This document shows, in pieces, positions 22,602 through 61,605 of a stretch of DNA of 64,000 nucleotides. This DNA is from Anadara kagoshimensis (lineage: Eukaryota; Mollusca; Bivalvia; Arcoida; Arcidae), in NCBI GenBank assembly GCA_021292105.1, contig CM037870.1:8777558-8841557 (forward strand), given 5' to 3'. A program made the translations under genes and the position numbers. Every line of letters begins with the position of its first letter. The stretch's first letter is position 1. The notes under the pieces are model-generated. The model searched no databases and was not told the origin of the DNA. It saw only the letters and a list, made by a program, of their open reading frames with translations.

Positions 22602-24783
22602 CTAGTATCTTGTTTGGGTTTGTTGACTGATGGAGGATTTAGACCTAGAACTACCGTCCCTTCTAGATTCAGTTAAGTTTACAATACTTGTAGATTTATG
22701 TACTTCACCATTACCTTTAAAAGCTTCCAACATACTTTTAAGAAATTTTGACAAATTTTCATACTCTGGATTCCTCTGTAGAGCTTGTAATGGCAGTGAG
22801 CTCTTGGAACACAATTGTAAACATTTTGTCCATAAAGCATATAGTTTGTATTCGTCAGACACATGAAGGCTCTTTATTAACAGGTCTTCTTTGACATTCT
22901 TTTCAGCATTAAGGTTATGCAGTAAGGTTTCTTCACACTTCTGTTTTAAATTCCAAATCTGGTATTCCTCCGCCAGTGGGAGTATGGCAAACGCAATCTG
23001 GTCTACAATTAAAGAAAAGCACTCCATGAAACATACAAAAGGACAAAATCTTGATAGAAATTTTATCACAAGTTTAAAAGGCTGAATAGAAATGGGAGTA
23101 AAGCGTAAAATGCCACCGACAATCCCATAATAGAACATTAAATACCGGTTATGAAATAAAATGTTTTTAAAAACAGTGTATTGTCTACATTGTACGCCAA
23201 GTACATATGTACATGTACTTGTACCACCTATAGTGGTTTTCAGAGTAATAAATTATTTGATTTGATTTAAGTTGCATAATAACGGAACAATTATGACACT
23301 TCGATAATAACTATTTACAGTGTAAATACAATTTATGCACAACATTTTCACTTTACATAAACTGCATGTATATATGTTTATGTAATTATTACATATAAAA
23401 TGAATATATATAATTACATAATGACAGAAACGGTTCAAAAATTACATTGGGCTAGTGTGTTTTCATGCTTATGGTAGCAATCTTCAGGCGAGTACATGCA
23501 TACATACAAATAATTGAACTGAGTAATAAAATCTATCCAGGTGTTCTCGAATTTCTTTAAATTCACAAAGAACAATCAATACAATGATAAAATAGATTAA
23601 AGAAAAGACAAGCGTACGCGTATGGTACGTTTTTAAAGTTAAAATGTCTACGTTTATGTAACACTTAAATCGGTTTTAGTGGTATTAACTTTTAACCTCG
23701 AGTTTGATTATTTATCCAATATAATCAATATATAAATCTGGTATCGTAATTTCAAAAATACGACAATGTGTACATGTGTATATATCTTAAGCTTTCTCGT
23801 AGAAACAACGGCTTTATGAATACGGACAAAATATTATTTCAATGACAGATTCTGAAGGCGTTCAGCTCGAAATGATAATATTAGTGCTGTATACCACTTT
23901 TGACTTTCTATAATATATTTAAATGATAATAATTAAAATAAAACATATATATCAGGTCATGTGCATAACACAATTCCAAAACAAAGTAAAAACTTTGAAA
24001 ACTGGCAAGCAAACTTGGCACGTGAACTTTCATCAAGAAAATGAGGTCGCTTGCTTCGGAAGGAGTTCGTGTCTAGCTAGCTACGCCCTTCCACGTGTGG
24101 AATGAAAGGAACATGGGACTATGGGGTGTCCAATATATCTAGGATAAGTTTGAATACAGTGACATCGTACTCAGTATGGACAATACTGTGATTGCGGCCA
24201 TAAAGATTTTCATGGCCTTGATAAGCCCAGGGTTGCAATATCAAATGTAGTATATGGCATATACATATATATTTAAATTGTATTTTTCAAACTTTTAATC
24301 CACTTCGGCATCTTGTGTGTAATACACAATTCAAGTATTTAAAAAAAATCATAAACAATAATTGCTTCTTGCAATAAATAACACATCAACAAGAATGGGA
24401 CAAATAAAACAATGTTGCACACAACATGCCAACTTACCGGTAATTCTCCGTTGGTAAGCTGGATGCAGTATATACAATAACTCCAACACATGGTCATAAG
24501 TTTTCCCTGCAAGTGGGATTTCCTTCTTTCCTTTTGTTTCCGTGGAAGTCAGCATCCTTGCAAAAACCGGAGAAGCCATGGACAACAGGGTTCTGGATGT
24601 GTATAACCGTTTACCTTCCACAATTAATATGACATCAGAGAAGCTATCTTCCTCTATAAAAGGCACACATTGTTTCTCTGTGCCAGGTAAGTTAGTTAGA
24701 GACCCGGGTGTACTTGTTCTACCTGCCGGCATGATGAAGCTCTGGCTGGATGTGGCCATTTCTGGATCGAATTCAGAACTCAT
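22602..24783 (-). CDS. BTB/POZ domain protein, two exons
   Basis: Exon 1 is 24783-24438 (ATG; donor GTAAGT) and exon 2 is 23002-22602 (acceptor after TTTAATTGTAG; stop TAA). Phase 1 on both sides gives 248 residues. Residues about 44-115 form the BTB fold start (DSFSDVILIVEGKRLYTSR, then TLLSMASPVFARML), followed by the KEIPL and 'YDHVLELLYILHP' segments. After the junction come 'AILPLAEEYQIWNLKQKCEE' and helices rich in Leu/Lys, which complete the BTB and a short BACK-like helical region. The tail (about 215-248) is Ser/Arg/Gln-rich. No Kelch, MATH or zinc-finger domain is present, so it resembles the short BTB-only proteins expanded in molluscs. BTB proteins dimerise and often act as Cullin-3 substrate adaptors; that role is inferred. 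The 1,435-bp intron holds a family A repeat (23985-24245). An upstream non-coding exon is possible because the frame stays open 5' of the ATG. Confidence 0.87.
23985..24245 (+). mobile_element. Family A copy in the BTB intron
   Basis: AAAGTAAAAACTTTGAAAAC, ACGTGAACTTTCATCAAG, 'GTCTAGCTAGCTACGCCC', CACGTGTGGAATGAAAGGAA, and AAGCCCAGGGTTGCAATATC. Confidence 0.75.
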
Positions 24784-25749
24784 ACTAACCCTTGACTTCT
24801 GAGTCCATTTGATATTCTTACAAACCGTGTATATGGACGTTTTTATCTGTAATTCATTGGTTTACTCCCCATTGCTAATCTAAGGAATGAAATCAACAAT
24901 TTTGAAGAAAGAGGTCCCGAAAGAACGCACGCAACAGCAAAATTATCCAGCGTGGATCCTGTTGAGAAACTTAGGATTTTTTACCAAGTAAAACAGCGCT
25001 ATATTGATTTTATAGACCGAAGGGAGTTTAAAATATAACCGCATTATAAGGAGCGGGGATTAAAAGTTTAAAACAATGTAAGAGGACTATAGTAAATACC
25101 TTAAATAGCCTCTAATAAAATCGTAACAACTCGGGCTATTATTTACAGTGTTGACTAAATATCGACAAACTATTTACATAAAATCGACATTGAATGGATA
25201 AATTGTAGCACCTATTGGCGGGTTGATTATTGTGAAGAATGACTTACAGATTAAATATATTATATAGTTGTATATAAAACTACAAAATTGATAAGAAATA
25301 CTCGTATTTAAACATATAATCACTTTTGTTAAATGCATGGACATAGATATGTATGTATGTGAAAGAAAAATAGAACATTTACAAGTAGACGCGGGTATTT
25401 TATTTCAGTATTAAAACAAAATTATTTCAATGTATTTCGATCTCTTTCGATTCAAACATTTTATTATTATATTATACCGCAGTTAAATATTCCATCTAAG
25501 TAAAATCATCTGCGATAAATGTATAACGGTCTGTACTATCGCATATATGGTTCTCGAAGTTAAACACATAATCTGCAGCAAAAATGTTTGGTCTCCATTG
25601 ATTCATTATATCCCAAAAATCACATTCTATCTTTAGTATATACTATAGATAAAGGTAAGTAACTGCGTAAACTTTATTAAATTATATACGATAAAATCTG
25701 CTAAAGTTACAAGGAGTTGTTGCTTACTTATGGCGAAAATGCACTTGTG

Positions 25750-28488: not shown

Positions 28489-31400
28489 TTATAGTTTGGA
28501 CTTCTCGTTGTCACTTTGTCTTAAGTCAGTAAATAAGAATGAACCTGTCGGTTGATCTATAAATTCACCCCGAGAGAAGACAGTTTCACCACCCACCACT
28601 GTGCTGTAAACACGACCTTTCATAATTTTACCCAAGTAAGGTGTAACCTGAAATCAAAATAGGTTATTAGTATGTTTTATAGTACAAACCTGTCGAAAGT
28701 TTTACAAAAAGCCAACGAATTAGTGCCGAATCGGCAGCTCATCTCGGCTCTCGTTAGCTGTATCTCGACAGCTTTTCGACAGATGGTATTTATCTCGACA
28801 GCTTTTCGACAGATGATATTTATCTCAACAGATGTCCAGCTACAGGCTTAACCATATGGCTTGGTCACTCAGCTTCGATTCCTTTTTGTTAACCTATTAT
28901 CTGTACTGTATATTGTGATGTTCCTCATGTGATGTTCAGCATGTGGAGCTATTTTGTTGATGTCCGGAAATACTGTTTTCTATTATGTATGCTATTGTAA
29001 AACATTAGTACACATAATTTCAGTATAAAAGTTGTACCTCGTTGTTAGCATGTCTTCAAGTCTTGTTTTTGCTCATTGAAAAATTTCAGTTCAAAAACTG
29101 ATAGCATTGGATGAATGTTGTGCAACATAACAAAACATTTACAAGTAATTAAAATTCTTTCTTTAGGTTTGTTTGAAGATACCTGCATGTAGCAGAATCT
29201 GATACAATGAGTTTATTTTTAACTTGAGTACTTTTATAGTTGTTATGTATTGTTTGTAGTTATTTACCGTTTGATTACACTTACTTTGTTTTTGTGTTGT
29301 ATATCCTCTGTCTTAACCTGTAATATAAATGTATCGATAAAAGAGTTATCTGAATTAATTAAAATGGAAAATGTTCATGTAAAAATAAATATAAGGAAAG
29401 GAAGAAGATAGCAAAGCAACATACATTATCCATAATAAACCTAGGTGCTTGACTAATGGGTCAACCAGTTAATTCTTTCAGTTACATATGCACAAATCTA
29501 GTTACAATCGAATGAATAATACACGCCTTTTAAGTGTTTTTTTTATTTTTGCAAATGGTTTTGACCTTTAATAACATGGTACCATTTTATGTAAAAATCT
29601 AGCATTTAATGCATGTTAACTTAAATTTACTTAGCGAAAACATACAATTCATGCCTGTCGAAAGTTAAACAATTACGTGTAGGTAACGAAAAGTTAACTC
29701 ATTTCAACCTCTTTAGCTGTGTGGTTGACTTTTCAGCGGCTGCTATTTGTCTCGCTCAGTGTTAAACTCTTGACAGATCTGTACTGTATCTCCATGAAAT
29801 AAACACCTATTTCAAGTTTGTAACATTGACTTACCTCATAATTTCCTTCTGGGTCCCATATAACAAAGTCGGCATCATATCCTGGTTTTATAGCGCCTTT
29901 ACGATTCTCCAACTTTACAAGTTTGGCTGTGTTCTCACATAACAGCTTAACCAGATCAAATAACGTCATACCATACTGCTGACAGTTAGTCCAAAACAAT
30001 GATAGACCTGTTGAATGATATAATAAAACTGCCTATTTCAGGAGTTCAGAAACAAAAGTGTGGGGAAAACCACCAAACTTCAGCAACTGAAACAGTAGTA
30101 CCTGTCCCAGTAGGATTGGAACCAATGTGGGATAAGATTTAAGACCACTAGACTATAAGAAGATAAAGGAAGATTAATATTACAAAAGCACCGTTTAGAA
30201 GGAGTCGTGAAAAAATTCAAAACAGTGGCAAACATATTGTGTAATGCTTATGATTTAGAAGAAAGTAATTTGAAACCGACACATATGTGCTTGGTAACAA
30301 CTAACATAACACATTACACAATACATTACTTAAAAGCTGAATTGAACTTTTTACGTTGTTATCGGGGTGTAACAACGTGAAAAGTGCAATTAAATTCTTA
30401 TAATTACAAACCCAAAATTTAATAGTTTTTCTGAACTGATCAGCTGATTTTCAGAAAATCGACGTTACAAGGTTGAACTGTGTAGTACTACAATAAATTG
30501 CATCTTTATGAAGCGATGAAATATCCGATAAAAAAGCTGTAATAGTTTTGAATTCACATCTTTTTAGTCATTTTCTAGTTATTTTCAGACAACATATAAT
30601 TTATGTTGCATTTAAACCCATTGATAAAAAAGGGACTATATTATGTCTCGTAATCATGAAAACAAACAACACTTTGTACAACGCCATACGTTTGTAGAAC
30701 AGGCGTGTTTACATGTTATTTTTATCCATCGCATAAGAAAAACCGCATTGGCTGAATGAACAGTGTGTTAAAAAACATGAAAGCAACTATTGACATGGAA
30801 TTAATCTTTTCTTGGATGAATCGATGTTTTACCACCTATGGACTGGATGTGAGATGAGGGATTCTGTCACCGGTGGTAGCGGTATCATGAGTGTATGGGC
30901 TGATTAGGGACATTTGGAGAAGGTAAACAAGCGGTACGGGTGAAAGTTAGACTGGAATATAGTATGTTATCAATTTTATCAAATTGTTATTGGCAGGGCT
31001 ACCACTGTCATTATCATCAAGATCCAGTTCAGGCTCAACCATCTGACTTATCTGCACACTGGCATTGCATTCCTCAAAATATTTGTTCTGATTCCCGGCT
31101 ATAATTGTGAAATAAAATGTCTTTGCTTTCAAAAGGATGTGTTTGTGATGAATTTCAACGGAACACCCTGTACTGAGGTTTGGCATCCGAGAATACCATG
31201 GTACGTGCTTATACTTAGGCCTATAGACACGTAAAATGCTTGCTGACGATAAAATATCGATTTTGAAAAAAAATATTTCATAAATATACAATCTTAAATG
31301 CAAATTATTAAAACATCGGTGAAAATTAATCAAAACATATTTGAATTAATTTTTCAAAATATTTATTTATAAAAAATCGAAGCATTTTAATGTTTCTATG

Positions 31401-34400
31401 TGAAATCTTTCCCGATCTTTCCGTTTGTTTACAATCTTAAAAATTGCTGTTATTAAAAGAATTCAGAGATGGGTAATCCCCGAAACAGACCTAAAGTAGT
31501 TCCGGTAGAAAGGGTAACACCGTGTTTTTGCAAGACAACAACCAAGAGAAAATGCTCTAAATTGTGTAACAACGTGAAGTTTGTAATTATAAATGAATGA
31601 TAAAACAGTCAATCAAGAAAAATATAAACACATATTTAGATTAATAGACTTGATTCTTGTAGATGAGCCACAAATTACAGTATTTATCACATAGTTGTGG
31701 CGAAATGAATTAATTTTAGGATGCTTGTTTCTTTCACCAAGTCAAGATAAACACCACAAATAGTTCTTAACCAATAACAGCATGCTTTATACAGTGCAAC
31801 TTCTTAATACATAACAATTTATGTGTCATATTGCAATTTCTTTTGAACTTTGGCTTTAAAAGGGAAACCAATAACTACAATGGTATTTCTAACGTACAGT
31901 GGAAAAAAATGTGCATAGCTTGACTATGACAAATTTATAAGAATGAAGACTTCTTTACAAAGTGTTAGATTTTTTCTAATTTTGACTATATTATAACACA
32001 CTAGTAAGTATCTGAGCTCTGCTTACCAAACTGAACAGATGATACACCACCCCAGGCAGTAAGGAAGTCTCCCTGTTCCAGCAGTTTCAGATCTGGTGTA
32101 CATGGTGAATGATCAGATACCACCATATCAATATCACCTTCTTGTAGTGCTTTCCATAGTAATTGCTAAAAAACATATAATTTGTGAAAATACAACTCTG
32201 TAAGCTATCGTGATTTTAAAAACACTTAAAAGCTTAAGTTTATTATCTGTTAAAATGCTGCATGAACTGTTCACTGTTAGTGTACCATTAAAGTAAGCAT
32301 TCTAATTTAATAAAAAAAGTGTTGCTGTTTGCACTTGCCATGTAAATATTGTGTTTTTCGTTTGATTTAGCTGATGGCTTAATAAAGAATATGAAATATG
32401 AATATTATTTAGTATCCAGTGTATGCGAATGCTTATTTTAATGCAATTATGCTACAAAATCCTTGATTGAAACATACAAGTTACAATAGTAGGAATATTT
32501 TGTACGTGAAAGCACATTTAACTTGCAAAATGACAACACCAAATGAAGTTTCCTTATTTGTACAAAATAGAAAACTTTAATCAGCGATTATAATCTTTCA
32601 GCTTAACAAATAGAACATATTACAAAAGTCTATACAAAACGAATATACAGTCGTTTAGTTGTTTACCTGGTTGTATTTCTCTCTGATTGGTGGACAACAC
32701 TTGTATTGTGTAGCACCATTTGGTATGGTTTCTGCCTCTAACGCCAGGTAATGATGACATGTTTCTACTGTAAGAGGTGCTCCTAATTTTCTGGTCTGAC
32801 GTATCAAGGGGAGGGCACTTGCTGATGATAGGTGGACTATATGACACCTTACTCTTTAAATAAATGATTGTAATCTATCATACATTATAGCTCTCTAATG
32901 CGTTATTTTTTGCGATCGATAGAATTTGTGATATATTAAATAGTCTGCCAACAAATATGTCCTACGCTTTCCTCATTACAATAATGGTCTACCTGGTTCT
33001 AGAAAACTAACCAAACATCTCCAAAATATTAGTATACCCCGCACTGTAACAATGTTCTTATTGCATATAAACCATTACAAAAATCTTCACACTTTTCCCA
33101 TCATTTTCAATTCTCATTGTCGTAAAACAGCCATTCACAAGTAGCACAGTTCAAACAAATAAAAGAAACGCATGTCCATCAAACTTTACACATTATAGTA
33201 CATACTCTATTTCTAAAATCACCCATTAGATATAAAATGTCAACAGCTTGACATTGTAAGAAAAGAATTACAAGTCCCTCCAAAACTGTTGACATTGATT
33301 GGATTTTCATTTAAAATTGTGGTACACAATTTAAAGAAACAAATACCTGTATTTTAGACACATCTCACAAACTATAGATATAGCTTCTACCTCCATTACT
33401 TCAGGACGACTCTTAAGAAACGTCTCATACAACTCAGGCTTAGCTGTTAAAATAGAATAATTACATGTTTATAAAAACTGAATTTGAATTTTTAATATCT
33501 AAAGATAATAAGTTTTCAAACAACATATTAGATAAAATAAAATAAATTGCGCCTTGGATGGTTGTAGTGTTTCAAAATATATACGTAATCAGTATCTGGT
33601 CAAAGAATACTCACCATTTTCTGACTGGCCACCACAATTACAATCCACTTCTGCGTGAAACTGAAATACGAAAAGTGTATAAAAATTGGCTCAACGCGGA
33701 AAATAATATAATTAATCCCAGAACTATGAAATACAATGTGTAATTGTGTTTGGATATGGATGTACAAAGGTATGTTTTCATTAAAATATTTACAAGGCAG
33801 CGTCAATGGCACTAATAATGACATTGACGAAACCAGAAATAAGAAATATAAAATCAGAAAACAATTATAAAAACTAATAAATAAATATATATATCATGTC
33901 GTTGACGTTGAAAGACTATTGTTTAAAGACTCATTTAACCCATTTTTAATTGTTGGTGTACCTGGAAATCGCAAACTCGCGCTAGTGACTTGAGTTTCAG
34001 AGACCCTATAGCCAAGTACATATTTAACTGCAAGTTTCTGTATTTAGTTTTTTATCACAATATGCAAGAACTAAAATTTAACTAAATATAAATCTATGTT
34101 ATACAATATCGACCTGTCGAAAATTAAAACACCTTTCGATAGATCTGTACCAGTACCTACCAGGACAACAGTATCCGTTCCTTGTAATACTTGGAATGCA
34201 GTCTCTAGATCAGACTTCTCTACAGAAGGGAATTCGTCTACACCACTGTGTATCAGGAAACACTTGAAACCCATAATACCAGCATTCAACATCGGTATCA
34301 ACTCGTTCTGAAATAAATTAACATCGTAAAACATAACATACTAGAACCCACTAACTCTGAAAAATGCACGAATAAAAAAAAACAAAAAAAAAAAAAACGA

Positions 34401-37400
34401 AAACAAAGTCTTTGAAAAAATGAGCTTAGCGGAATATGCAACATAATTTTAGATCAAAACCTTTGTTTCCTCTTGTTTAATTGGAAATGTCCATCTAGTT
34501 GGTAATTATAAAGTTTAACGGCCAAAATTGAATATAGCACAAAGTGAATTGACTTAACTCCATTTAATGTTGCATTATATTTTTTCTGCAATTCTTAATC
34601 TTATTCATACGCCTAATGATATATCATCAACATTTTGATATAAAACTTATATTGAAATATGGCATGACATTGTAAATATTTCCTTACATCTGAAGCTGAT
34701 GAAGACACCGATAGTTCATTACTAGAATACAAGTATATAATGTGTTATTCATGCTTAAAACAAGTATAAAATATTTGAGCACGCAGTTTGTTTTCAACCC
34801 TAACAATCAGACGCTGTCGACATTGCAAGCAACTGCTTTTTCGAAAACATTGAATTCATCGGTGACAAAACATGCTTACTTACCTCGTTATTTGGCACGA
34901 TACCGCCCCAAAATCCAACATCTACATAACATGTTTACTTACTTCGTTATTTGGCACGATACCGCCCCAAAATCCAACATCTACAAAACATGCTTACTTA
35001 CTTCGTTATTTGGCACGATACCGCCCCAAAATCCAACATCTACAAAACATGCTTACTTACTTCGTTATTTGGCACGATACCACCCCAAAATCCAACATCT
35101 ACATAACATGATTACTTACTTCGTTATTTGGCACGATACCGCCCCAAAATCCAACATCTACATAACATGATTACTTACTTCGTTATTTGGCACGATACCG
35201 CCCCAAAATCCAACATCTACATAACATGATTACTTACTTCGTTATTTGGCACGATACCGCCCCAAAATCCAACATCTACATAACATGATTACTTACTTCG
35301 TTATTTGGCACGATACCGCCCCAAAATCCAACATCTACATAACATGATTACTTACTTCGTTATTTGGCACGATACCACCCCAAAATCCAACATCTACATA
35401 ACATGATTACTTACTTCGTTATTTGGCACGATACCACCCCAAAATCCAACATCTACATAACATGATTACTTACTTCGTTATTTGGCACGATACCACCCCA
35501 AAATCCAACATCTACATAACATGATTACTTACTTCGTTATTTGGCACGATACCGCCCCAAAATCCAACATCTACATAACATGATTACTTACTTCGTTATT
35601 TGGCACGATACCACCCCAAAATCCAACATCTACATAACATGATTACTTACTTCGTTATTTGGCACGATACCACCCCAAAATCCAACATCTACATAACATG
35701 ATTACTTACTTCGTTATTTGGCACGATACCACCCCAAAATCCAACATCTACATAACATGATTACTTACTTCGTTATTTGGCACGATACCACCCCAAAATC
35801 CAACATCTACATAACATGATTACTTACTTCGTTATTTGGCACGATACCGCCCCAAAATCCAACATCTACATAACATGCTTACTTACCTCGTTATTTGGCA
35901 CGATACCACCCCAAAATCCAACATCTACATAACATGATTACTTACTTCGTTATTTGGCACGATACCGCCCCAAAATCCAACATCTACATAACATGATTAC
36001 TTACTTCGTTATTTGGCACGATACCGCCCCAAAATCCAACATCTACATAACATGATTACTTACTTCGTTATTTGGCACGATACCGCCCCAAAATCCAACA
36101 TCTACATAACATGATTACTTACTTCGTTATTTGGCACGATACCGCCCCAAAATCCAACATCTACATAACATGATTACTTACTTCGTTATTTGGCACGATA
36201 CCGCCCCAAAATCCAACATCTACATAACATGCTTACTTACTTCGTTATTTGGCACGATACCGCCCCAAAATCCAACATCTACATAACATGATTACTTACT
36301 TCGTTATTTGGCACGATACCGCCCCAAAATCGAACATCTACATAACATGATTACTTACTTCGTTATTTGGCACGATACCGCCCCAAAATCCAACATCTAC
36401 ATAACATGATTACTTACTTCGTTATTTGGCACGATACCGCCCCAAAATCCAACATCTACATAACATGATTACTTACTTCGTTATTTGGCACGATACCGCC
36501 CCAAAATCCAACATCTACATAACATGATTACTTACTTCGTTATTTGGCACGATACCGCCCCAAAATCCAACATCTACATAACATGATTACTTACTTCGTT
36601 ATTTGGCACGATACCGCCCCAAAATCCAACATCTACATAACATGATTACTTACTTCGTTATTTGGCACGATACCACCCCAAAATCCAACATCTACATAAC
36701 ATGATTACTTACTTCGTTATTTGGCACGATACCACCCCAAAATCCAACATCTACATAACATGATTACTTACTTCGTTATTTGGCACGATACCACCCCAAA
36801 ATCCAACATCTACATAACATGATTACTTACTTCGTTATTTGGCACGATACCGCCCCAAAATCCAACATCTACATAACATGATTACTTACTTCGTTATTTG
36901 GCACGATACCGCCCCAAAATCCAACATCTACAAAACATGCTTACTTACTTCGTTATTTGGCACGATACCACCCCAAAATCCAACATCTACATAACATGAT
37001 TACTTACTTCGTTATTTGGCACGATACCACCCCAAAATCCAACATCTACATAACATGATTACTTACTTCGTTATTTGGCACGATACCGCCCCAAAATCCA
37101 ACATCTACATAACATGCTTACTTACCTCGTTATTTGGCACGATACCACCCCAAAATCCAACATCTACATAACATGATTACTTACTTCGTTATTTGGCACG
37201 ATACCACCCCAAAATCCAACATCTACATAACATGATTACTTACTTCGTTATTTGGCACGATACCACCCCAAAATCCAACATCTACATAACATGCTTACTT
37301 ACTTCGTTATTTGGCACGATACCACCCCAAAATCCAACATCTACATAACATGCTTACTTACTTCGTTATTTGGCACGATACCACCCCAAAATCCTACATC

Positions 37401-40400
37401 TACATAACATGCTTACTTACCTCGTTATTTGGCACGATACCACCCCAAAATCCTACATCTACATAACATGCTTACTTACCTCGTTATTTGGCACGATACC
37501 ACCCCAAAATCCTACATCTACATAACATGCTTACTTACTTCGTTATTTGGCACGATACCGCCCCAAAATCCAACATCTACATAACATGCTTACTTACTTC
37601 GTTATTTGGCACGATACCACCCCAAAATCCTACATCTACATAACATGCTTACTTACCTCGTTATTTGGCACGATACCGCCCCAAAATCCAACATCTACAT
37701 AACATGCTTACTTACTTACTTCGTTATTTGGCACGATACCACCCCAAAATCCAACATCTACATAACATGCTTACTTACTTCGTTATTTGGCACGATACCA
37801 CCCCAAAATCCTACATCTACATAACATGCTTACTTACTTCGTTATTTGGCACGATACCGCCCCAAAATCCAACATCTACATAACATGCTTACTTACCTCG
37901 TTATTTGGCACGATACCACCCCAAAATCCAACATCTACATAACATGCTTACTTACTTCGTTATTTGGCACGATACCGCCCCAAAATCCAACATCTACATA
38001 ACATGATTACTTACTTCGTTATTTGGCACGATACCGCCCCAAAATCCAACATCTACATAACATGCTTACTTACTTCATTATTTGGCACGATACCGCCCCA
38101 AAATCCAACATCTACATAACATGCTTACTTACCTCGTTATTTGGCACGATACCGCCCCAAAATCCAACATCTACATAACATGCTTACTTACTTCGTTATT
38201 TGGCACGATACCACCCCAAAATCCAACATCTACATAACATGCTTACTTACTTCGTTATTTGGCACGATACCGCCCCAAAATCCTACATCTACATAACATG
38301 CTTACTTACTTCGTTATTTGGCACGATACCACCCCAAAATCCAACATCTACATAACATGCTTACTTACTTCGTTATTTGGCACGATACCACCCCAAAATC
38401 CTACATCTACATAACATGCTTACTTACTTCGTTATTTGGCACGATACCGCCCAAAATCCAACATCTACATAACATGCTTACTTACCTCGTTATTTGGCAC
38501 GATACCACCCCAAAATCCAACATCTACATAACATGCTTACTTACTTCGTTATTTGGCACGATACCGCCCCAAAATCCAACATCTACATAACATGATTACT
38601 TACTTCGTTATTTGGCACGATACCGCCCCAAAATCCAACATCTACATAACATGCTTACTTACTTCGTTATTTGGCACGATACCGCCCCAAAATCCAACAT
38701 CTACATAACATGCTTACTTACCTCGTTATTTGGCACGATACCACCCCAAAATCCAACATCTACATAACATGCTTACTTACTTCGTTATTTAGCACGATAC
38801 TGCCCCAAAATCCTACATCTACATAACATTCTTACTTACATCGTTATTTGGCACGATACCACCCTAAAGTCCAACATCTACATAACATGCTTACTTACTT
38901 CGTTATTTGGCACGATACCACCCAAAATCCTACATCTACATAACATTCTTACTTACATCGTTATTTGGCACGATACCACCCCAAAATCCTACATCTACAT
39001 AACATGATTACTTACTTCGTTATTTGGCACGATACCGCCCCAAAATCCAACATCTACATAACACTTATCTTTGGCATTCTCCAGCTTTGTATTGAAGGCA
39101 GGTAAACTTGTTGTGGATGGAATTGAGTTCCTACAAGAATATTAACACCGGTTTTAATACATATACAGTCTAACCTGCCTTAAAGGCCATTTTATATAAG
39201 GGTCAGCTGTTTATAAAGGTCAGTAGAATTGTATCCCAATTGTTCTTTATTCTTATTATTTGAACCTGTATATAAAGGCCACCTGCCCATAAAGGCCACT
39301 TTTACTGGTTCCCTTGGGTGACCTTTATAGACAGGTTTGACTGTACAGTACATACCTGGTGAAAGTTTATCAACAAGTTAACGAATTGGTGCTGAATCGC
39401 TAGCTATATTATATTATATTATATTAGCTAAACTCAACCCCATCGTTGGTCTGTATTTGACAGCTTTTCGATAGCTTTCTAACTCTCCCGACCTCTAGTT
39501 ATCAATATGCCTGTCACTCCACAGCCTACTTTACACTTTTGTTAGATCAGTGTTAAATTTTTGACAGGTTTGTATTGTACATTGTTGGAGGTATTTAATA
39601 AAAATAGATGGTTGAACTACTTAAAATGGTTATTCCTCAATTGATATTATGCATTGCTTTTCATTTGTAATTAAACATTTGTACCTAAACTTACAATGGA
39701 CCACCTGTAGAAACTAGTAAAGTTGTGAATAATTTCTTGCATGAGTAAGAAGGGGTGGTAGACTAGTGATTATTTATCAGTAACTAAAAGAACGTTTATT
39801 AAATATGTCTTGAAATTATCATTTTCGACTGGTCGACATTTGTGATTGTGATTTGAACCTAGATATAAATGTTTCTGTTGGATTTATAATGCATATAAAA
39901 TATCGCATCCAATTTTCAATTTAACTTCTTTATGCATACAATTAACTATATTGCATTTAACCAACTTACAATGGCATGTCGATAATTGTGGTGATTCCTC
40001 CAGCGGCCGCGGCTTTTGTAGCGGTGTAATACCCCTCCCAATGTGTCCGCCCGGGTTCGTTCACGTGTACATGACAATCAACAACACCAGGCATAATAAG
40101 TGCATCGCCAACATCTACAACCTATAATTATAACAGAAGATAGTGATAACCACATCATCTGGACCCAGTTGTTCGAAGCTTGATTAGCTTAATCAATGAT
40201 TAACACAGATTTAAAGTATCAATTAAAATCAATCATATCATCATCAAATCCTATTATCCATATATTTCTAGCCATGTGGATTCCATTCACTTACATCATT
40301 TTCAACATTAATCTTACAACAGAGTTGAAATTATGCATTATATACATTTTGACTAATCAACTAATTAAACAAATCAGGTTTCAAACAACTGACCCCTGAT

Positions 40401-40858
40401 GTTTCCACTTAATTTTGTGGTCGTGATTACAATAAACTATTAAACATGCAAGGCCATTTATCACAAATTCGCAATAAAGTTTCTGTCAGACATTTGAAAT
40501 AGCAACCCATTAAGGATTTCTCTGTTAGCATCTTAGTTATTTTTAAAAGTATCGTGAAGTATTTGGTGATTGCAATGAAATAAAGAAAATCTGTACATAG
40601 TGACCAAAAGAGCAAATTAGCCAATATATACAGGAATATTGTACACGTAAGTATACGCCTCTGTGTAAAAGAAAGCGTTTTGTTTTTGTTATTTTTAAAA
40701 TGTTTAATTTTCTTTTAAGTTTTAAAGCTTATTTTTATAGTTTATGTTTCCGTTATAATTGAAATGTCTCCATGTATAGTGCTTTCACTGGTGATTTGTT
40801 AAGCATGGTTTTCATTCAGCTAAATATTAATTCTTCTATTACAGTTTAAAATGCATAT

Positions 40859-40905
<47 letters not shown>

Positions 40906-41724
40906 TCATATATACATTACTTTGCACATGTTGCAGGCTTCGTAATTTTGCAATCAATATTTTATTTCGTATTTCTTGTTTACATATATATACCGACCTA
41001 ATATAACTTATTCTGTATATATGTAGTTTTACATTGTATACTATTATTATTTTGCTTTTACTATGATATAGGGCCTATATATATCATGTTTTGTCGAATT
41101 ACAATCTCTAATAACTTATAAAATACGTTCAATGTAAATTGATTCAACGCTAATTAAAGTTATTCGTATCTTGTAAAGTATAATATATATATGAGCACAT
41201 TATGCATAATATAAATTTTGACGAATCAACTAATTTAACTAATCAGGTTTCGAACCCCTGATGTTTCCACTCAATTACCACTTAATTTTGTGGTCGTTAT
41301 TACAATAAACTATTAAACATACAATGCCATTTATCACAAACTCGCAATTAAGTTTCTGTCAGACATTTGAAATAGCAACCCATTAAGGATTTCTCTGTTA
41401 GCACCTTAATTATTTTTAAAGTATCGTGAAGTATTTGGTACTTTATAAAACAAGCGTAAAACTGCTGTAAAAAGCTATGTAACGTTTGAACATGTTGTAA
41501 ATCTATAGATTTTATAACAATGCTGTCGCGACACACTTAGCTATAGTACTACCTTACTACAACCTAGTTACCTGTGATATGCCTTCTCTAGTGGCGAGGT
41601 CATTACCACTTATGCCAGGTACCACTTCCTCAATCTTCCCATTTTTCACCACTATACTTGCTGGTCCTATACAGTTGTCAAACAGGACTTTTTGACTGGA
41701 AAATATTTTCGTCTGCCCGCTCAT
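28489..41724 (-). CDS. ALN: Allantoinase, complete ten-exon gene, 453 aa, C-terminal SKL
   Basis: Exons on the minus strand: 41724-41572, 40121-39970, 39130-39016, 34307-34161, 33660-33615, 33443-33347, 32847-32667, 32165-32027, 30007-29835, 28647-28489 (TAA). All have GT donors and AG acceptors and all join in phase, giving 1,362 nt. Family signatures: [20 protein letters not shown] (62-81), [11 protein letters not shown] (127-137), [15 protein letters not shown] (153-167), FHAE (190-193), [13 protein letters not shown] (210-222), CHIVHLSSA (238-246), [31 protein letters not shown] (312-321) and [19 protein letters not shown]. The expected binuclear metal ligands of this amidohydrolase are H68, H70, carboxylated K155, H191, H242 and D315. 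The enzyme hydrolyses (S)-allantoin to allantoate in urate degradation. The protein ends NEKSKL, a canonical PTS1, so a peroxisomal location is predicted. Intron 3 contains a giant array built from the exon 3 border. Length is close to other animal allantoinases. Confidence 0.97.
28679..28860. mobile_element. MITE family D copy, rearranged
   Basis: 'ACCTGTCGAAAGTTTTAC' start as in 45814-45990, with a 31-bp internal tandem of CTCGACAGCTTTTCGACAG. Allantoinase intron 9. Confidence 0.55.
29651..29789. mobile_element. MITE family D copy next to allantoinase exon 9
   Basis: GCCTGTCGAAAGTTAAAC at the left and GTGTTAAACTCTTGACAG at the right are imperfect inverted repeats. It ends 46 bp from the exon 9 donor. 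Confidence 0.65.
30040..30180 (-). mobile_element. SINE fragment in allantoinase intron 8
   Basis: The minus strand shows a GGTTCCAATCCTAC B-box-like motif and a GTGGTTTTCCCCACAC block shared with the other SINEs. Confidence 0.45.
34107..34156. mobile_element. MITE family D remnant at the exon 4 donor
   Basis: 'CGACCTGTCGAAAATTAAAA' and AGATCTGTACC resemble the two ends of family D with the middle lost. The remnant runs up to the GTAGGT donor of allantoinase exon 4. Confidence 0.45.
34868..39063 (-). repeat. 59-bp minisatellite, 71 units, built from an exon-intron boundary
   Basis: Units start about every 59 bp from 34870 to 39002; I counted 71. On the minus strand each unit is 48 nt of allantoinase exon 3 (TGT TAT GTA GAT ... 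AAC GAA) plus GTAAGTAATCA or GTAAGTAAGCA from intron 3. Variation is limited: CATGATT or CATGCTT; CCGCCCC or CCACCCC; CTTCG or CCTCG; TCCAAC or TCCTAC; one 4-bp expansion near 37708; and single-base deletions near 38451 and 38922. The A-type unit dominates 35106-37280 and the C-type dominates 37289-38990. Every unit keeps a GTAAGT donor. Reading past any donor reaches TAG within eight codons. The rightmost unit is the real exon 3 end and the leftmost runs into ordinary intron sequence. Confidence 0.97.
39016..39130 (-). CDS. ALN: Allantoinase exon 3, parent of the 59-bp array
   Basis: This 115-nt exon encodes the end of L102 to E140 and finishes CCA AAT AAC GAA followed by GTAAGT. Its last 48 nt (codons 125-140) plus 11 intronic nt are identical to the repeat unit of the adjacent array, so the array starts exactly at this exon. 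It encodes the conserved [11 protein letters not shown] loop of allantoinases. The upstream splice join (exon 2 ends ATG CCA TT) restores Leu102. Confidence 0.95.
39166..39343 (-). mobile_element. MITE family B, second copy, inverted
   Basis: Reverse-complement relative of 496-671: it shares the AATTGTATCCCAATTGTTC core and the terminal CAGTCTAACCTGCC and ACAGGTTTGACTG. It sits in allantoinase intron 2, just upstream of exon 3. Confidence 0.8.
39344..39581. mobile_element. MITE family D copy in allantoinase intron 2
   Basis: ACCTGGTGAAAGTTTATCAA at the left and GTGTTAAATTTTTGACAGG at the right, with a (TATAT) tract inside. It directly abuts MITE B. Confidence 0.6.
40330..41442 (+). repeat. 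Direct duplication of about 220 bp in allantoinase intron 1
   Basis: About 40330-40568 and 41200-41442 share GAATCAACTAATT-type starts, 'TTTTGTGGTCG', CATTTATCACAAA, AGTTTCTGTCAGACATTTGA, 'CAACCCATTAAGGATTTCTC' and GTATCGTGAAGTATTTGGT. Confidence 0.85.
40858..40907. repeat. (TA)n(TG)n microsatellite
   Basis: Alternating TATATA followed by TGTGTG in allantoinase intron 1. Confidence 0.9.
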
Positions 41725-42879: not shown

Positions 42880-45591
42880 TTAACCAATCAACTGTGGCGG
42901 ATTTGTTCCATTGACCGGTATGTTTGCTGACGTCACAACTTTTGTAGGAGCAATAGGAGCCATATCTGAAATTAATATAATTTTTAATAATTTCATAATT
43001 TTGGTAATTTTACTCAAATAAATACTAATATACTCATTTCTAGATATTTTTTTCTATTTTCGTAAGCACAGGTGTCACAGTGTAAATATTGCGAAATCAT
43101 CCAACTCCATTTCGAAAACAGACAGCGAAAAAGACATGTAACAATACATGATAAATAATATAAATAATAATATGATTGACGATGTAACGATATATAGGCA
43201 AACAACATTGACCTGTCTGCTTGACCTTTAATTAGGAATATTCATATAGAAAGATCCACCTCATAACACTAAATTGGTAGTAGTAGGACTCACTGTCAAT
43301 AGAATGTACTCAAGGTACATGATGAGTGTTCGCACTGTGTAGACAAAATAAACCCATGTGATTCCTAAACATAGATGCACTTGTCCACAAAAAAAAAAAA
43401 AAAAAAAAAAAAAAAATTCAAATTAAAGGTCAAGCGGACAGGTCTAAGTTGTTTATACGATATTACATTACTAGTATATTTTAATGATCTTTTATGGTAC
43501 TATATGCCAGGAGAAAAATGAGTGGAAATTAATATAGGACACCAGATCTGATACATTTGAGACATTAAATTTCAGCAACATGATGGATTGTAAAACAGAA
43601 ATCACTTACCGTATTTACAAGCCCAGGAATCTTGTTCTGGTAATACAAACAGTATACCGTCACAAGGGTAGTCATACCAATGTCCAGAGTCACCTGGCTT
43701 CAACAACACGCAGTCTTCTTCGTGATGTATTGGTAAAACATTTACTATGTTACCAGGTTCACCCTGTGCCCAATATGTGAAGTCAACAGGCTCACCTATA
43801 ATGATAAGGAAGAAGATCGTAACATTATATTCTTTTCAGAATCTTTTCTGTGAGTTGTTTTGAAGATTAATGGTGTTTTGCTATCCACTCAAAATCTTTC
43901 CACTTAAATCGAGACTGTCAGTCAGTGGATGGTGGAGGAAACCGTAATACCAGAAGAAAACCACCGAACTGACATGCACTTTCTCACACAAGGATCTGTC
44001 CCGCTCGGGGTTTGAACCTAGGCGATGAGAGTCGCCGTGATCCATATGTCGAATCTTTTGACTTCTGGACCATAAAGCCCAATGTCTCAAGTTATTTCGA
44101 TTTGGATTTAGAAATAAGACTGTTACAGACTGGGTTATTTATATATATATAAGTTTTTCCATCTTCACTTGGATGCATATGACGTTTTCAAAAAGCTGGC
44201 ATTCTTTTGGTCGCCATATTGAAATTTAAAATGGCTAGGCACATTTTTGTACAAAGCTATCGCCGCCAAGCGTATGTACAAAATGTCATGTTTGTATCAC
44301 CATTTAAACAATAATGAGTCTTATCTGCTTTATTTCATTCATTTTACTTTCGTTTATATAAACGCTAAATAACATAGAGAATTGAAAAAGTCAAAAATAA
44401 ACATACTAACCCATGTCCGAATCACAGTCCAGAAGCAATGTAACAACTGTCAGGTTAGACACGTGAACTGCCACCAGGAAAGTGAGGCCGGGTGATCAGG
44501 AAGGGTAAGCACCTTCTGTTTAGCCAGCTACACCCGCCACGTGTGTAATCAAAATTGTGTGAAAGGAACATGTAAAGATGATTTTCCATTGAATAGTTTT
44601 GATAGAAGCTTGTTGATCATGATAATTAACAAAGTTGTATATATTTGTTGATAAATCGTTCACTATCTAGTTCTTTACTTTTGTAGCATTACTCACCCGA
44701 ATCCCAAACAAACGTTTTCTCGCTAACTTTATCATTCAATCCAATCCAGAGACCTTTCCCGTGAAAATTTAAAGAGCTAAGAGAAGACATAATAAAATTT
44801 TGTTCCGGAATGCTATGTATGGTCAGCAGGTTTCCTCCTTTACTTTTACAATCGTCCCTGGCATGTTCCCAGTTCTGGTGACGATGTATGATAAACTCGT
44901 AACAATGATCTTCAAACGCCTTCAGGGAGTCGCCTCTCTTGATGTTAGAAGGACAACGGCTGACGTCATCTTGTGAAACTATAAAATCACAAAAATCAAT
45001 TAAAAATAATGTGGAGTTTCTGTCCTAAAAGGTATAAATTTAGTCTTGGTTTCGTATTTTATTTGTTTTGTTTCCGGATTGCACAGTCTATTTCAAAATA
45101 CACATTGTAGCGATCTACTGTTAGAAGGACTCCAATTCATAACCTAACCTCCATAGTTAGAACACGTAACTGACACGTTGGAAAATTACATGGACACAAA
45201 AAATAGGTGAGAGATACATTGTAAATGTATAATATAAGAGAGGAAAAATTAATGAGCTAAGCAGAACTTTGCTTCAAAAATATTAGCCGAAACCTTTATC
45301 ACCTCCGGTTTGATTGGATATGTTCATTTAGTCAGTCATGATTAAGTTATCCATAGGGCACAAAATGCCCTTCTTCTCAAGTGACTAGACCTCCGTTACA
45401 CTGCAGTGTCAGAGCTATTATATAGAATTAAAAAAACCATAAATGTTAAAAATCCCAAACATTTTTTGAACACCGTCCCTGTAATAGAATATTTCGTAAT
45501 GAATACATAGAACCTTTCACCCGAACCCTTCGCCATTTTACTTACAGACGCCAACAGCGAAAGCTAACTGAAGCAGTAAAGTGAGCACCAT
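42880..45591 (-). CDS. Secreted C-type lectin (single CTLD), four exons, 199 aa
   Basis: Exons: 45591-45546, 44978-44697, 43795-43610, 42965-42880 (TAA). All introns are phase 1. Exon 1 encodes a signal peptide (MVLTLLLQLAFAVGV). The CTLD spans about residues 24-172: CP..., CYEF (C41), WEHARDDCKSKGGNLLTIHS, GLWIGLNDK, 'FVWDSGEPVDFTYWAQGEPGN', EEDCVLL, GHWYDYPCD and WACKY. The six cysteines of a long-form CTLD are present. At the sugar-specificity position the usual EPN or QPD reads EPG, and the WND motif reads WYD, so calcium-dependent sugar binding may be altered. A short Pro/Thr-rich tail (27 residues) follows. No membrane segment is seen, so the protein is probably secreted, as in mollusc haemocyte or mucus lectins. 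AATAAA overlaps the stop codon (TTAATAAAA). It lies on the same strand about 1.2 kb upstream of the allantoinase ATG. Confidence 0.93.
43210..43444. mobile_element. MITE family E with 23-bp ends
   Basis: The left end ACCTGTCTGCTTGACCTTTA and the right end TAAAGGTCAAGCGGACAGGT are inverted repeats (one mismatch over 23 bp). It carries a 29-bp A tract. Second copy at 61977-62191. Confidence 0.85.
43895..44095 (-). mobile_element. SINE copy in lectin intron 2
   Basis: The minus strand shows GGTTCAAACCCCGAGC (B-box-like), GTGTGAGAAAGTGC, and GGTTTCCTCCACCATCCAC. Confidence 0.65.
44400..44580 (+). mobile_element. Family A fragment in lectin intron 2
   Basis: 'CCATGTCCGAATCACAGTCC', ACGTGAACTGCCACCAGGAA, and 'CACGTGTGTAATCAAAATTG'. 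Confidence 0.75.
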
Positions 45592-55600: not shown

Positions 55601-57638
55601 GCTCGTATGAACACCCGGTCTCGCTTCCCTGTAGCATATACCTACCTACCTACCTACCTATCCTCTTCGCTCCTAGAGGAGCATTAGGCGAGGCACAGAT
55701 CTTTCCACTTTGTCCTATTTAAGGCTTTGTTCTCTGCCGTTCTTCATTTTGACCAGCCCATATCATTTCTTTCTTTCTCTGTAGTTCTTCGCCAGGTCTT
55801 CCTTGGTCTTACTCTCTTTCGTTTTCCTTCTGGAGCCCAGGTCAATGCAATGTTTTCATTTTCATAGTTTCCTTTTCTTAATATATGCCCTACGTATCTC
55901 CATCGCCTTGATTTTATTGTGTTTTCTACTGATGTTGTTTGCGTTCTATCACTTAGGTCTTCATTTGTTATTTTATTCGACCAAAAGATCTTCATTATTC
56001 TTCTTAAGCATCTGTTCTGGAATGTTTCCAGCTTCTTTATGTCTAGTTTTGTTAATTTCCAGCACTCGTCTTCATAAATTAAGACAGAGATGATATTGCT
56101 GTTGAAGATTCTCACTTTAGTTGTTTTACTGTATATGTTGGATTTTCACACTTTGTTAAGGGCTATGAATGCCTGCCTTGCTTTTTGTAACCTGGCATCA
56201 ATGTCTTCCGTAGTGCCTCCTTCCGTGTTGAGTTTTGATCCTAAGTATGTGAATTCGGATACATCTTCTATCTCTTGTTGGTCTATTTTCACTGGGTTGG
56301 TATTGTCAGTGTTAATTCTAATTACTTTTGTCTTCCCGATGTTGATTTTGAGGCGTCTTATCTGCCCAGTCTCTTACTGCTGATGTTTTGTTTTGGAAGT
56401 CAATGATAGCAAATACATGGATTTAAATTATCTAAATTATTTTTTTCAGTTTTCAAAGTTTTTACTTTGATTTTACGATTGTGATTTAAACATAGACTAC
56501 TGTAGATCCGTAAATACAGTGCACACGGTGTGATCATCATAAATATTTCAATTATGGCATAGCAATTATGTTCCAAGTAAGAAGGTACAGAAGGAATTTT
56601 TTTGACATACATGTAGTTACATTAATTTTGTTGTTTTGTTTAAAATTTCAAAAATTGCTCAATGTACAGAATTAGATTCACTTTTGGATGAATGAAAAAT
56701 ATTTTCCTATAACTTCAATATATTTTGTATCTAGTTTTGACAATGTTTTGTGTGTTTGTTGGAAAGTAAGACTTCATTCTTGCATTTTCCATGTGCACTC
56801 AATTTGTGGAAATACCGAAGTATTTACTTTTTAGTTGTAAAAATCTTTCGCAAATTGACAATGCTTTTTGATCGGCGAGATGAACATTTCAGATATAACC
56901 AGAGATTTAAATCATCAGCTATGCGTCTGGTCCATTACTGCTTATGGATTTTGTTGTAGATATGTTATTAGGTGTTTGTGAAGCTATTGGAACTTTAAGC
57001 ATTATGGATAATGTCTCTCCTCATGACATCGAAAAAGAAAAATACTCATATGCTTTGCATGTAATTAAATCAAAAACAAACATGCTAATCCATGTCCGAA
57101 TCACAATCCAGAAGCAAAGTAAAAACTTTGGAACTGACAAGTTAAGTTAGACACGTGAACTTCCACCGTGGAAGTGAGGCCGTGTGCTCCGGAAGGGTAA
57201 GCACCTCTTGTTTAGGTAGCTACACCCGCCATGCGTGTAATCAAAATTGTATGAAAGGAACATGGAACTATGAGACGTCAAATATATCCAGGGCAATCCT
57301 GGACACAGAGTTTTCGTAGTGTGTTCTTGATATGCTTTTGCTCTGGATGTCTTCAAAATGGACACGATTTGACCATCTCTTGTATGATTTAAAAGCGTAA
57401 TTACATTATGATAATATCTCGTTTATCTTAATCAGGTAACAACTATCTTGAAATATTACCAACAGGAAATACTAACGCGAGTAGTCTTGATGCTGAAGGT
57501 TCTACTGCATACAGAAAACCTGACGAACCGGAAAACAGTACAGAATTTCATGTTTATATTGACGGGGATAATGAACATGGTATTGCAATCAACAACAGTC
57601 GTCATTATGATAATGATAATATCTATGTTAACAGCTGA
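49650..57638 (+). CDS. Orphan single-pass membrane protein with tyrosine motifs, ten exons, 366 aa
   Basis: Exons: 49650-49698, 50150-50425, 50850-50924, 51570-51623, 52140-52184, 52866-53003, 53987-54005, 54274-54419, 55374-55469, 57436-57638 (TGA). Introns are phase 1 except that after the 19-nt exon 7, which is phase 2. Residues 1-17 are a signal peptide. The ectodomain (18-180) has one N-glycosylation sequon (N36-T-T) and only two cysteines in its structured part (C39, C66), like a small disulphide loop or Ig-like fold. A Ser/Asp/Lys-rich stalk is spread over short exons 3-5. The membrane span is about 181-203 (VYIIASAVSVVYIITISIG then VVLV), followed by KRIKK. The tail carries EPIYDTP (Y275), NNYLEI (Y303), HVYID (Y340) and NIYVNS (Y363, a YxN motif of the Grb2-SH2 type). 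This suggests a receptor or adaptor phosphorylated by tyrosine kinases. I know no named family for it. Exon 9 could instead start at 55383 (acceptor TTTCCAG), removing three residues in frame. Confidence 0.85.
52340..52620 (+). mobile_element. tRNA-derived SINE, second family
   Basis: GGTAGCTTAGTTGGTAGAG is a good tRNA A-box and GTGGGTTCCATCCC a B-box. The body 'ATGAAAGTCACGGTTCTTTC' and 'CGGTAGGTATGGCACGATAA' follows. Located in receptor intron 5. Confidence 0.82.
53350..53650 (-). mobile_element. Family A copy in receptor intron 6
   Basis: 'GTTAACAAGTATGATGTCTC', GGATATATATTACGTCCCAT, 'GATGGAGCTAGCTATACAGG', and GGACTTGGAATGGTATT. Confidence 0.75.
53987..54005 (+). CDS. 19-nt microexon 7 of the orphan receptor
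   Basis: Acceptor TTTTATTTTAG, exon GAAAAATAGAAGAAGAGAG, donor GTAAGT. It encodes GKIEEER just after the membrane anchor. It changes the phase from 1 to 2 and is needed to join exon 6 (phase 1) to exon 8 (which needs phase 2), so skipping it would shift the frame. Confidence 0.75.
55580..56510 (-). mobile_element. Family A copy split by the LINE fragment
   Basis: The left part, 'ATATAGCTACGCTCGTATGA' and 'CACCCGGTCTCGCTTCC', ends at about 55632. The right part 'CAGTTTTCAAAGTTTTTACT' with 'GATTTAAACATAGACTAC' resumes at about 56447. The order fits one family A copy opened by LINE insertion. Confidence 0.6.
55635..56390 (-). mobile_element. RTE-like LINE, 3' fragment with reverse transcriptase C-terminus
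   Basis: On the minus strand a 123-codon frame (56115-55744) reads SVLIYEDECWKLTK, 'KLETFQNRCLRRIMKIFWSN', RRWRYVGHILRKGN and 'APEGKRKRVRPRKTWRR', the typical end of RTE-type LINE polymerases. Upstream, in another frame, lie KTKVIRINTDN, FTYLGSKLNTEGG and KARQAFIAL. It is frameshifted and 5'-truncated, so it is inactive. It ends with a (GGTA)n tail at 55635-55660. Confidence 0.88.
57085..57315 (+). mobile_element. Family A copy just upstream of receptor exon 10
   Basis: 'CTAATCCATGTCCGAATCAC', ACACGTGAACTTCCACCGTG, 'GCTCCGGAAGGGTAAGCACC', and 'CAGGGCAATCCTGGACACAG'. It lies about 120 bp before the exon. Confidence 0.8.
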
Positions 57639-59802: not shown

Positions 59803-61605
59803 ACAAGAGGCCCATGGGCCTTATACGCTCACCTGATAACTAATGGCTAGATGATAGATTTAAAGTAAACATAAATACTAAACCCCAATGACTTTTTTCT
59901 TTACATCAAAATGATCATTGTATCAATACCTACAACATTCTAATATACATGCCTATACAAAAAGTTTATAGTTTTCGAGATAATTAACCATTTCGGTATT
60001 GTTTTCACATCTGTGACCTTGACCTTTGAACCCATGACCTTTTTCTATACATCAAAATGATCGTTGTATCAATACCTACAACATTCTAATATACATGTCT
60101 ATACAAAAAGTTTATAGTTTTCAAGATAATTAACCATTTCAATATTGTTTTGCATCCGTGACCTTGACCTTTGAACCCATGACCTTTTTCTATACATCAA
60201 AATGATCGTTGCATCAATACCTACAACATTCTAATATACATGCCTATACAAAAAGTTTATAGTTTTCGAGATAATTAACCATTTCGGTGTTGTTTCGCAT
60301 CTGTGACCTTGACCTTCGAACCTATGACCTTTTTCTATACATCAAAATGATCGTTGTATCAATACCTACAACATTATAATATACATGCCTATACAAAAAG
60401 TTTATAGTTTTCGAGATAATTAACCATTTCAGTATTGATTCGCATCTGTGACCTTGACCTTTGAACCCATGACCGTTTACTATACATCAAAACGATTGTT
60501 GTATCAATACCTACAACATTCTAATATAAATGCCTATACAAAAAGTTTATAGTTTTCGAGATAATTAACCATTTCGGTATTGTTTCGCATCTGTGACCTT
60601 GACCTTTGAACCCATGACCTTTTTCTATACACCAAAATAATCGTTGTATCAATATCTACAACATTCCAATATAAATGCCTATACAAAAAGTTTATAGTTT
60701 TCGAGATAATTAACCATTTCAGTATTGATTCGCATCTGTGACCTTGACCTTTGAACCCATGACCTTTTTCTATACATCAAAATGATCGTCGTATCAATAC
60801 CTACAACATTCTAACATACATGCCTATACAAAAAGTTTATAGTTTTCGAGATAATTAACCATTTCGGTGTTGTTTCGCATCTGTGACCTTGACCTTTGAA
60901 CCCATGACCTTTTTCTATACATCAAAATGATCGTTGTATCAATACCTACAACATTCTAATATACATGCCTATACAAAAAGTTTATAGTTTTCGAGATAAT
61001 TAACCATTTTGGTATTGTTTCGCATCTGTGACCTTGACCTTTGAACCCATAACCTTTTTCTATACATCAAAATGATCGTTGTATCAATACCTACAACATT
61101 CTAATATACATGACTATACAAAAAGTTTATAGTTTTCGAGATAATAATTATAATCAGAGGTAAAAAAAATTAGGTCACGACCTTCACAATTGACCTTGAC
61201 CTCATTTTGAAGATACTAACAAGATGTCAAAACTGAAAACCCCATGTCATTATCTGGTCAAGTAGTCAAGTTATAACAATTTGAAGCTATTTTACGATTT
61301 TTTCAAAATTAAACGCAAAAACGCGTAACCCATTTTTCGACCGAATTTCACAAAATGAACAAACTATAGGCTTAAGACCCTAGAGAAGCCAAATATCTCA
61401 TCAGATTTTTTCTCCAAACAATACTTTCGGAGAAGAAGATTTTTTAAGATTTTTGCACCCCTAGGTCACCTTGACCTAGTTATGGTAGCCATGGCAACGC
61501 CACGAACAAATCTGAATTGCACCGACCCAGACATGCTTCTGACCAAGTCTCATTGAAATCTGCCAAGTACTTTCAGAGGAGAAGTCGAAAATGTGAAAAG
61601 TTTAC

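Follow-up and report, generated by a model that had tools for sequence, protein, structure and literature searches.

A minisatellite of 71 exon-intron border units in intron 3 of an Anadara kagoshimensis allantoinase gene

Intron 3 of an allantoinase gene in the bivalve Anadara kagoshimensis holds a large minisatellite in which every unit repeats the end of exon 3 together with the start of intron 3, and thus carries a splice donor. The array lies in a window of 64,000 nucleotides, which is the whole stretch of DNA that was analysed. The explanation that we prefer, and that we consider probable with an appreciable margin of doubt, is that the minisatellite was begun by a short repeat common to exon 3 and intron 3, that it swaps sequence with the coding exon and that it is tolerated through exon definition.

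Tandem Repeats Finder reports a single array of its kind, at 34865-39063, with a period of 59, 71.1 copies and 97% matches; tandem units of 10-100 bp, many copies and high identity are the marks of a minisatellite. Cutting the minus strand at the donors gives 71 head-to-tail units (34873-39063), with the G of the first donor at 39015 and that of the last one at 34883. Each unit combines the final 48 nt of exon 3 with the initial 11 nt of intron 3. An initial annotation of this DNA had described the unit as exactly this border, 59 bp long; the composition stands, and the length applies to 68 of the 71 units, two others being 58 bp and one 63 bp. Its statement that every unit keeps GTAAGT was borne out (71 of 71), and the array has 72 copies of this hexamer in total because the 63-bp unit carries two overlapping ones. 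In the whole window, the minus strand has 92 copies and the plus strand has 14. A 27-nt core of the unit has 71 matches with at most three mismatches, and none in 100 dinucleotide shuffles of the window.

The units fall into 20 distinct types. Counted in edits from the exon copy, the distance is zero in 21 units (the exon copy included), one in 21, two in 13, three in nine, four in four, five in two and six, the maximum, in one. The decoys had been said to match the real donor region over at least 54 nt, and this is true of 70 of the 71 units and fails in the one with six edits. The array was also considered as a hidden coding sequence and rejected: the minus strand has 97-103 stop codons per frame and a longest open run of 24 codons, and the plus strand has 31-38 stops and a longest open run of 98 codons. 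In a collection of viral contigs, an exact search with a degenerate version of the unit gave no match. The window has no Rfam family at the gathering score and no tRNA, and among inverted repeats of at least 12 nt with arms no more than 80 nt apart, none is inside the array and one pair is in its flank.

Two other tandem repeats are present in the window. One is a second minisatellite at 59888-61145 (145 bp, 8.7 copies, 94% matches), just past a GAGGCCCATGGGCCTTATACGCTCACCTGA motif at 59807-59836, which we take to resemble repeats of bivalve molluscs. The other, at 9923-10065, has a 60-bp unit, a multiple of three, in 2.1 copies, and is within a 115-codon plus-strand open frame that has no Pfam match.

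The host gene is a predicted intact allantoinase gene (AllB, amidohydrolase family), in agreement with the initial annotation. It was assembled from ten exons on the minus strand (28489-41724) that were picked by eye and then verified through phase and homology; the nine introns all have GT-AG borders, and the 455-aa product is unbroken. The protein matches Amidohydro_1 in Pfam and, over residues 8-441, the allantoinase equivalog model TIGR03178 with a score of 492 bits (cut-off 357.85), and its matches to the narrower allantoinase models NF004839 and NF005960 are under the cut-offs of those models. Among proteins of solved structure, its best three matches are the allantoinases 3e74, 8hfd and 3hm7, and HVH, GFKCF, HAE, HLSS and SDHSPC align with 3e74. 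The residues that we take to be the metal ligands of allantoinases, HxH, K, H, H and D, are all found at the presumed positions.

Joining of the exons places exon 3 (115 nt) at 39016-39130, intron 3 at 34308-39015 and exon 4 at 34161-34307, all on the minus strand; exon 4 has the acceptor TTTATTTCAG and includes the region of the GFKCF lysine. The array takes up 4143 of the 4708 nt of intron 3, and without it the intron would have some 565 nt. Of the remaining eight introns, introns 2, 4, 5, 6 and 7 are 171-839 nt and introns 1, 8 and 9 are 1187-2019 nt. Unit 1 of the array belongs to the working gene: its exonic part (39016-39063, minus strand) is the genuine 48-nt end of exon 3, encodes 16 residues in phase 0 and joins exon 4 in frame, and its intronic part (39005-39015, minus strand) holds the donor GAA/GTAAGTAATCA, where the slash marks the exon end.

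Domain matches were also obtained elsewhere in the window. Upstream of allantoinase is a C-type lectin exon region (43608-45024, minus strand) with a Lectin_C match of E 2.7e-11 for 44692-45024; its next piece, 43608-43835 (minus strand), has no Pfam match. Pieces of a BTB/POZ domain are at 22605-24861 (minus strand), one with E 5.9e-11 (24352-24861) and a second with E 0.006, under the Pfam cut-off. An open frame at 55747-56145 (minus strand) weakly matches DUF6451 (E 9.3e-05; 22.7 bits, under the cut-off of 28).

The consequences of using each donor were predicted by building, for each of the 71 donors, a transcript of exons 1 and 2, exon 3 cut at that donor, and exon 4. The frame stays open through exon 4 with donor 1 only (1 of 71), so this donor alone would make the enzyme. 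The products from donors 2-6 stop after VSNHVM, and all 70 later-donor products share this stop because each starts with the same stretch. Both results agree with the initial annotation, which had predicted a stop within eight codons for any later donor and a single productive one.

Donor strength was scored as pairing with the 5' end of U1, for which we used the letters that we take to be correct. The value is -7.2 kcal/mol for the real donor, GAA/GTAAGTAA, and for 58 decoys; two decoys with GAT pair at -7.0 kcal/mol, and GAG/GTAAGTAA, which is found in units 6, 10, 16, 20, 24, 27, 28, 33, 54 and 71, pairs at -12.3 kcal/mol. There are indeed 70 decoys, as claimed earlier, but they are not all indistinguishable from the real donor, since these 10 pair better. 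When the nine donors of the gene were scored with one extra exon base relative to the array donors, the real donor of the array was the second weakest, and only the exon 2 donor was weaker (-5.4). We infer that donor 1 is the one that is actually used. As most decoys pair with U1 as well or better, its use would have to rest on order, on distance to the acceptor or on the time of transcription, and not on strength. When two equal donors are duplicated, the intron-proximal one is often said to be favoured, and together with the weakness of the real donor this argues against easy tolerance of the array; a literature search on the choice between equal duplicated donors found no paper.

The origin of the array may be read from its two edges. 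On the exon side, the repeat starts at GATAAG-TGTTATGTAG, and on the far side, unit 71 (34873-34931, minus strand, GAG/GTAAGTAAGCA) runs through GTAAGTAAGCA-TGTTTTGTCACC into unique intron. As unit 71 continues in this way, its end is likely the ancestral edge of the intron. TGTT[A/T]TGT is common to the exon edge and to this far intron edge, and we infer that the array-free ancestor had the two copies 59 nt apart, as a short imperfect repeat whose exon 3 copy was TGTTATGT and whose intron copy, downstream, was TGTTTTGT. Replication slippage or unequal exchange between these imperfect repeats would have duplicated the intervening 59 bp, and the border between exon 3 and intron 3 would thereby have become the seed of the minisatellite, in an allantoinase gene that is intact. 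Units 37, 69 and 70 begin with TGTTTTGTAG, in which the intron-type TGTTTTG is joined to the exon form at the junction; this is the form that a crossover within the short repeat would leave.

The array then would have grown through copying of units and blocks and through exchange between units, and the variant patterns support this step. For the site pairs 27/57, 27/48 and 15/27, the main states are found in all four possible combinations, as would be expected if exchange between units had made them. An eight-unit block, ABBBAAAA, is present twice (units 38-45 and 60-67), and a repeat of this length was obtained in none of 1000 full shuffles and in three of 1000 shuffles within halves. Exchange between units and duplication of blocks are again what a minisatellite displays. 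Of the 70 pairs of adjacent units, 22 agree at the four sites that were scored (shuffle mean 11.5; one of 5000 shuffles as high). G at intron position +9 is found in 29 of units 1-36 and in five of units 37-71, and the exon-side half has 16 unit types and the far half 10.

The coding copy, unit 1, appears to be part of this exchange. It is letter for letter the commonest type, and 17 of the 21 copies of this type are in units 38-67; in the near half, the type is found in units 1, 8, 18 and 34, and units 2-5 are 5, 4, 6 and 4 edits away from it, respectively. Unit 1 has T at intron position +9, and units 68-71, at the far intron edge, have G or A. This difference suggests that the T is probably derived and would have been acquired by exchange. 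In addition, the exonic variants present in at least five units (sites 15, 27 and 48) are all synonymous (3 of 3; chance 0.009, based on 30 synonymous changes among the 144 possible single ones), compared with one of seven substitutions found in one or two units (Fisher 0.033). The Fisher value is 0.018 when two frameshift deletions are included and 0.088 if the intron-derived variant at site 5 (3 units) is classed as common. With three common variants to go by, this pattern is no more than suggestive of common unit types having passed through the coding exon. It is likely that the coding copy takes part in exchange, with fewer data behind this than behind exchange between units, and the observations suggest that coding sequence can be pulled into the turnover of a minisatellite.

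As to how the gene lives with such an array, we prefer the explanation that exon definition favours the first donor and so makes the array tolerable. The splicing machinery would take exon 3 as the stretch between its acceptor and the first donor that follows, which gives the 115-nt exon, and the first donor would be transcribed ahead of any decoy. Use of a later donor would give a longer exon with a stop codon, and nonsense-mediated decay would remove the product, so that the array would cost some transcript and do no job. Its length probably differs between individuals. The intact donors, which had been read as meaningful, do not argue for a job: a minimal count from the table of unit variants gives about 14 substitution events, and the chance that none of these fell in the six bases of GTAAGT is 0.22. 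The initial annotation had also suggested that the array could sequester U1. This was set aside as implausible by numbers, the one number used being the abundance of U1, around a million per cell.

Other readings have to be weighed. The one that survives best, although we consider it rather improbable, is that the decoys divert a share of the transcripts to products with stop codons, and that the length of the array, by differing between individuals, sets the output of allantoinase. The frame results are in keeping with this, as all 70 later donors lead into a stop codon, and minisatellites often are variable in length; exon definition, however, disfavours exons of many hundreds of nt. Equally doubtful is the broader proposal that the exon end and its donor co-evolve with their roughly 70 copies in the intron, with the exon feeding the array and being overwritten by it, and that the row of U1 sites tunes the splicing of exon 3, with array length as a heritable dial for allantoinase output.

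Slightly less probable still is a helpful array, in which downstream donors that bind U1 either strengthen the recognition of exon 3, with its weak GAA/GTAAGT, or hold U1 against early polyadenylation in a long intron, U1 being a factor that blocks polyadenylation. The real donor is indeed weak and 10 decoys are strong, and the donor lies in one of the more accessible regions of its unit (in 200-nt windows, opening 9 nt costs about 1.6 kcal/mol there, compared with a mean of 3.0 over all array positions). However, decoys that are fit to enhance are equally fit to be spliced, and the donors show no sign of selection. A helpful role is conceivable because a downstream donor can enhance exon definition, acting like an exonic enhancer that recruits U1, SRSF1 and upstream-acceptor factors (PMC8724738).

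That the assembler inflated a short real array is an unlikely reading, somewhat more so than the one before. Runs of up to five identical neighbouring units and the repeated eight-unit block would be hard to assemble, but the 20 unit types in irregular order and the clean unique flanks look more like an array that was read through than like mechanical repetition. Finally, the idea that the RNA structure of the array conceals the decoys and leaves donor 1 open is very improbable: the RNA of five units (36004-36298, minus strand) folds far better than its shuffles (z -6.5, matched by none of 200), with the units pairing mutually, and in 300-nt folding windows donor 1 is surpassed in openness by only three of the 70 decoys, but this count rises to 15 in 200-nt windows and 54 in 100-nt windows, so the outcome varies with the setting and is not robust.

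Whichever reading is correct, the locus is a natural competition experiment, with 71 near-identical donors in one transcript, only the first of which is predicted to be productive, and with 20 of the 70 decoy units identical to the real one across 59 nt. RNA from the locus would show if order, acceptor distance or U1 strength decides the choice of donor.

Some known systems resemble the allantoinase array in part. Introns can be gained through tandem genomic duplication of an exon stretch that bears AGGT, as described in a review (PMC3443670). In both cases, duplicated coding sequence multiplies splice signals, but the allantoinase array duplicates an existing border some 70 times with no new intron evident; by eye, each unit has a TAG without a pyrimidine-rich tract ahead of it. 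Earthworm metallothionein genes, like the allantoinase gene, have a large tandem repeat within an intron of a working gene (intron 1), which the authors termed a minisatellite, and the available text (PMC12783039) describes no units of exon end plus donor. Neighbouring donors also compete in GYNGYN tandem donors (PMC1779574), which are a few bases apart and form no repeat array.

The closest system is a human one. Turri, Cuin and Porter (1995, NAR 23:1854) are said to have described a minisatellite in human IFI6 (G1P3, 6-16) that provides multiple splice donors, reportedly with some two dozen copies of a unit of about 12 bp, and with a protein preserved when alternative donors are used. The allantoinase array likewise offers multiple donors, one in every unit, and it starts at a real exon end; it differs in its unit of 59 bp, its 71 copies and the 48 coding nt in each unit, and its alternative donors do not keep the frame. 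According to PMC4526556, two downstream repeat units of the IFI6 minisatellite serve as donors and give three mRNA species. Therefore, the initial annotation, which knew of no described case of this kind and size, does not hold for the kind, which IFI6 already represents. It may hold for the size, as no other donor-bearing minisatellite of this size was found among the literature matches listed (the best 20 of 101 in one listing, with most subscription papers outside the coverage). What sets the array apart from IFI6 is the size of the unit, the copy number and the presence of a single usable donor.
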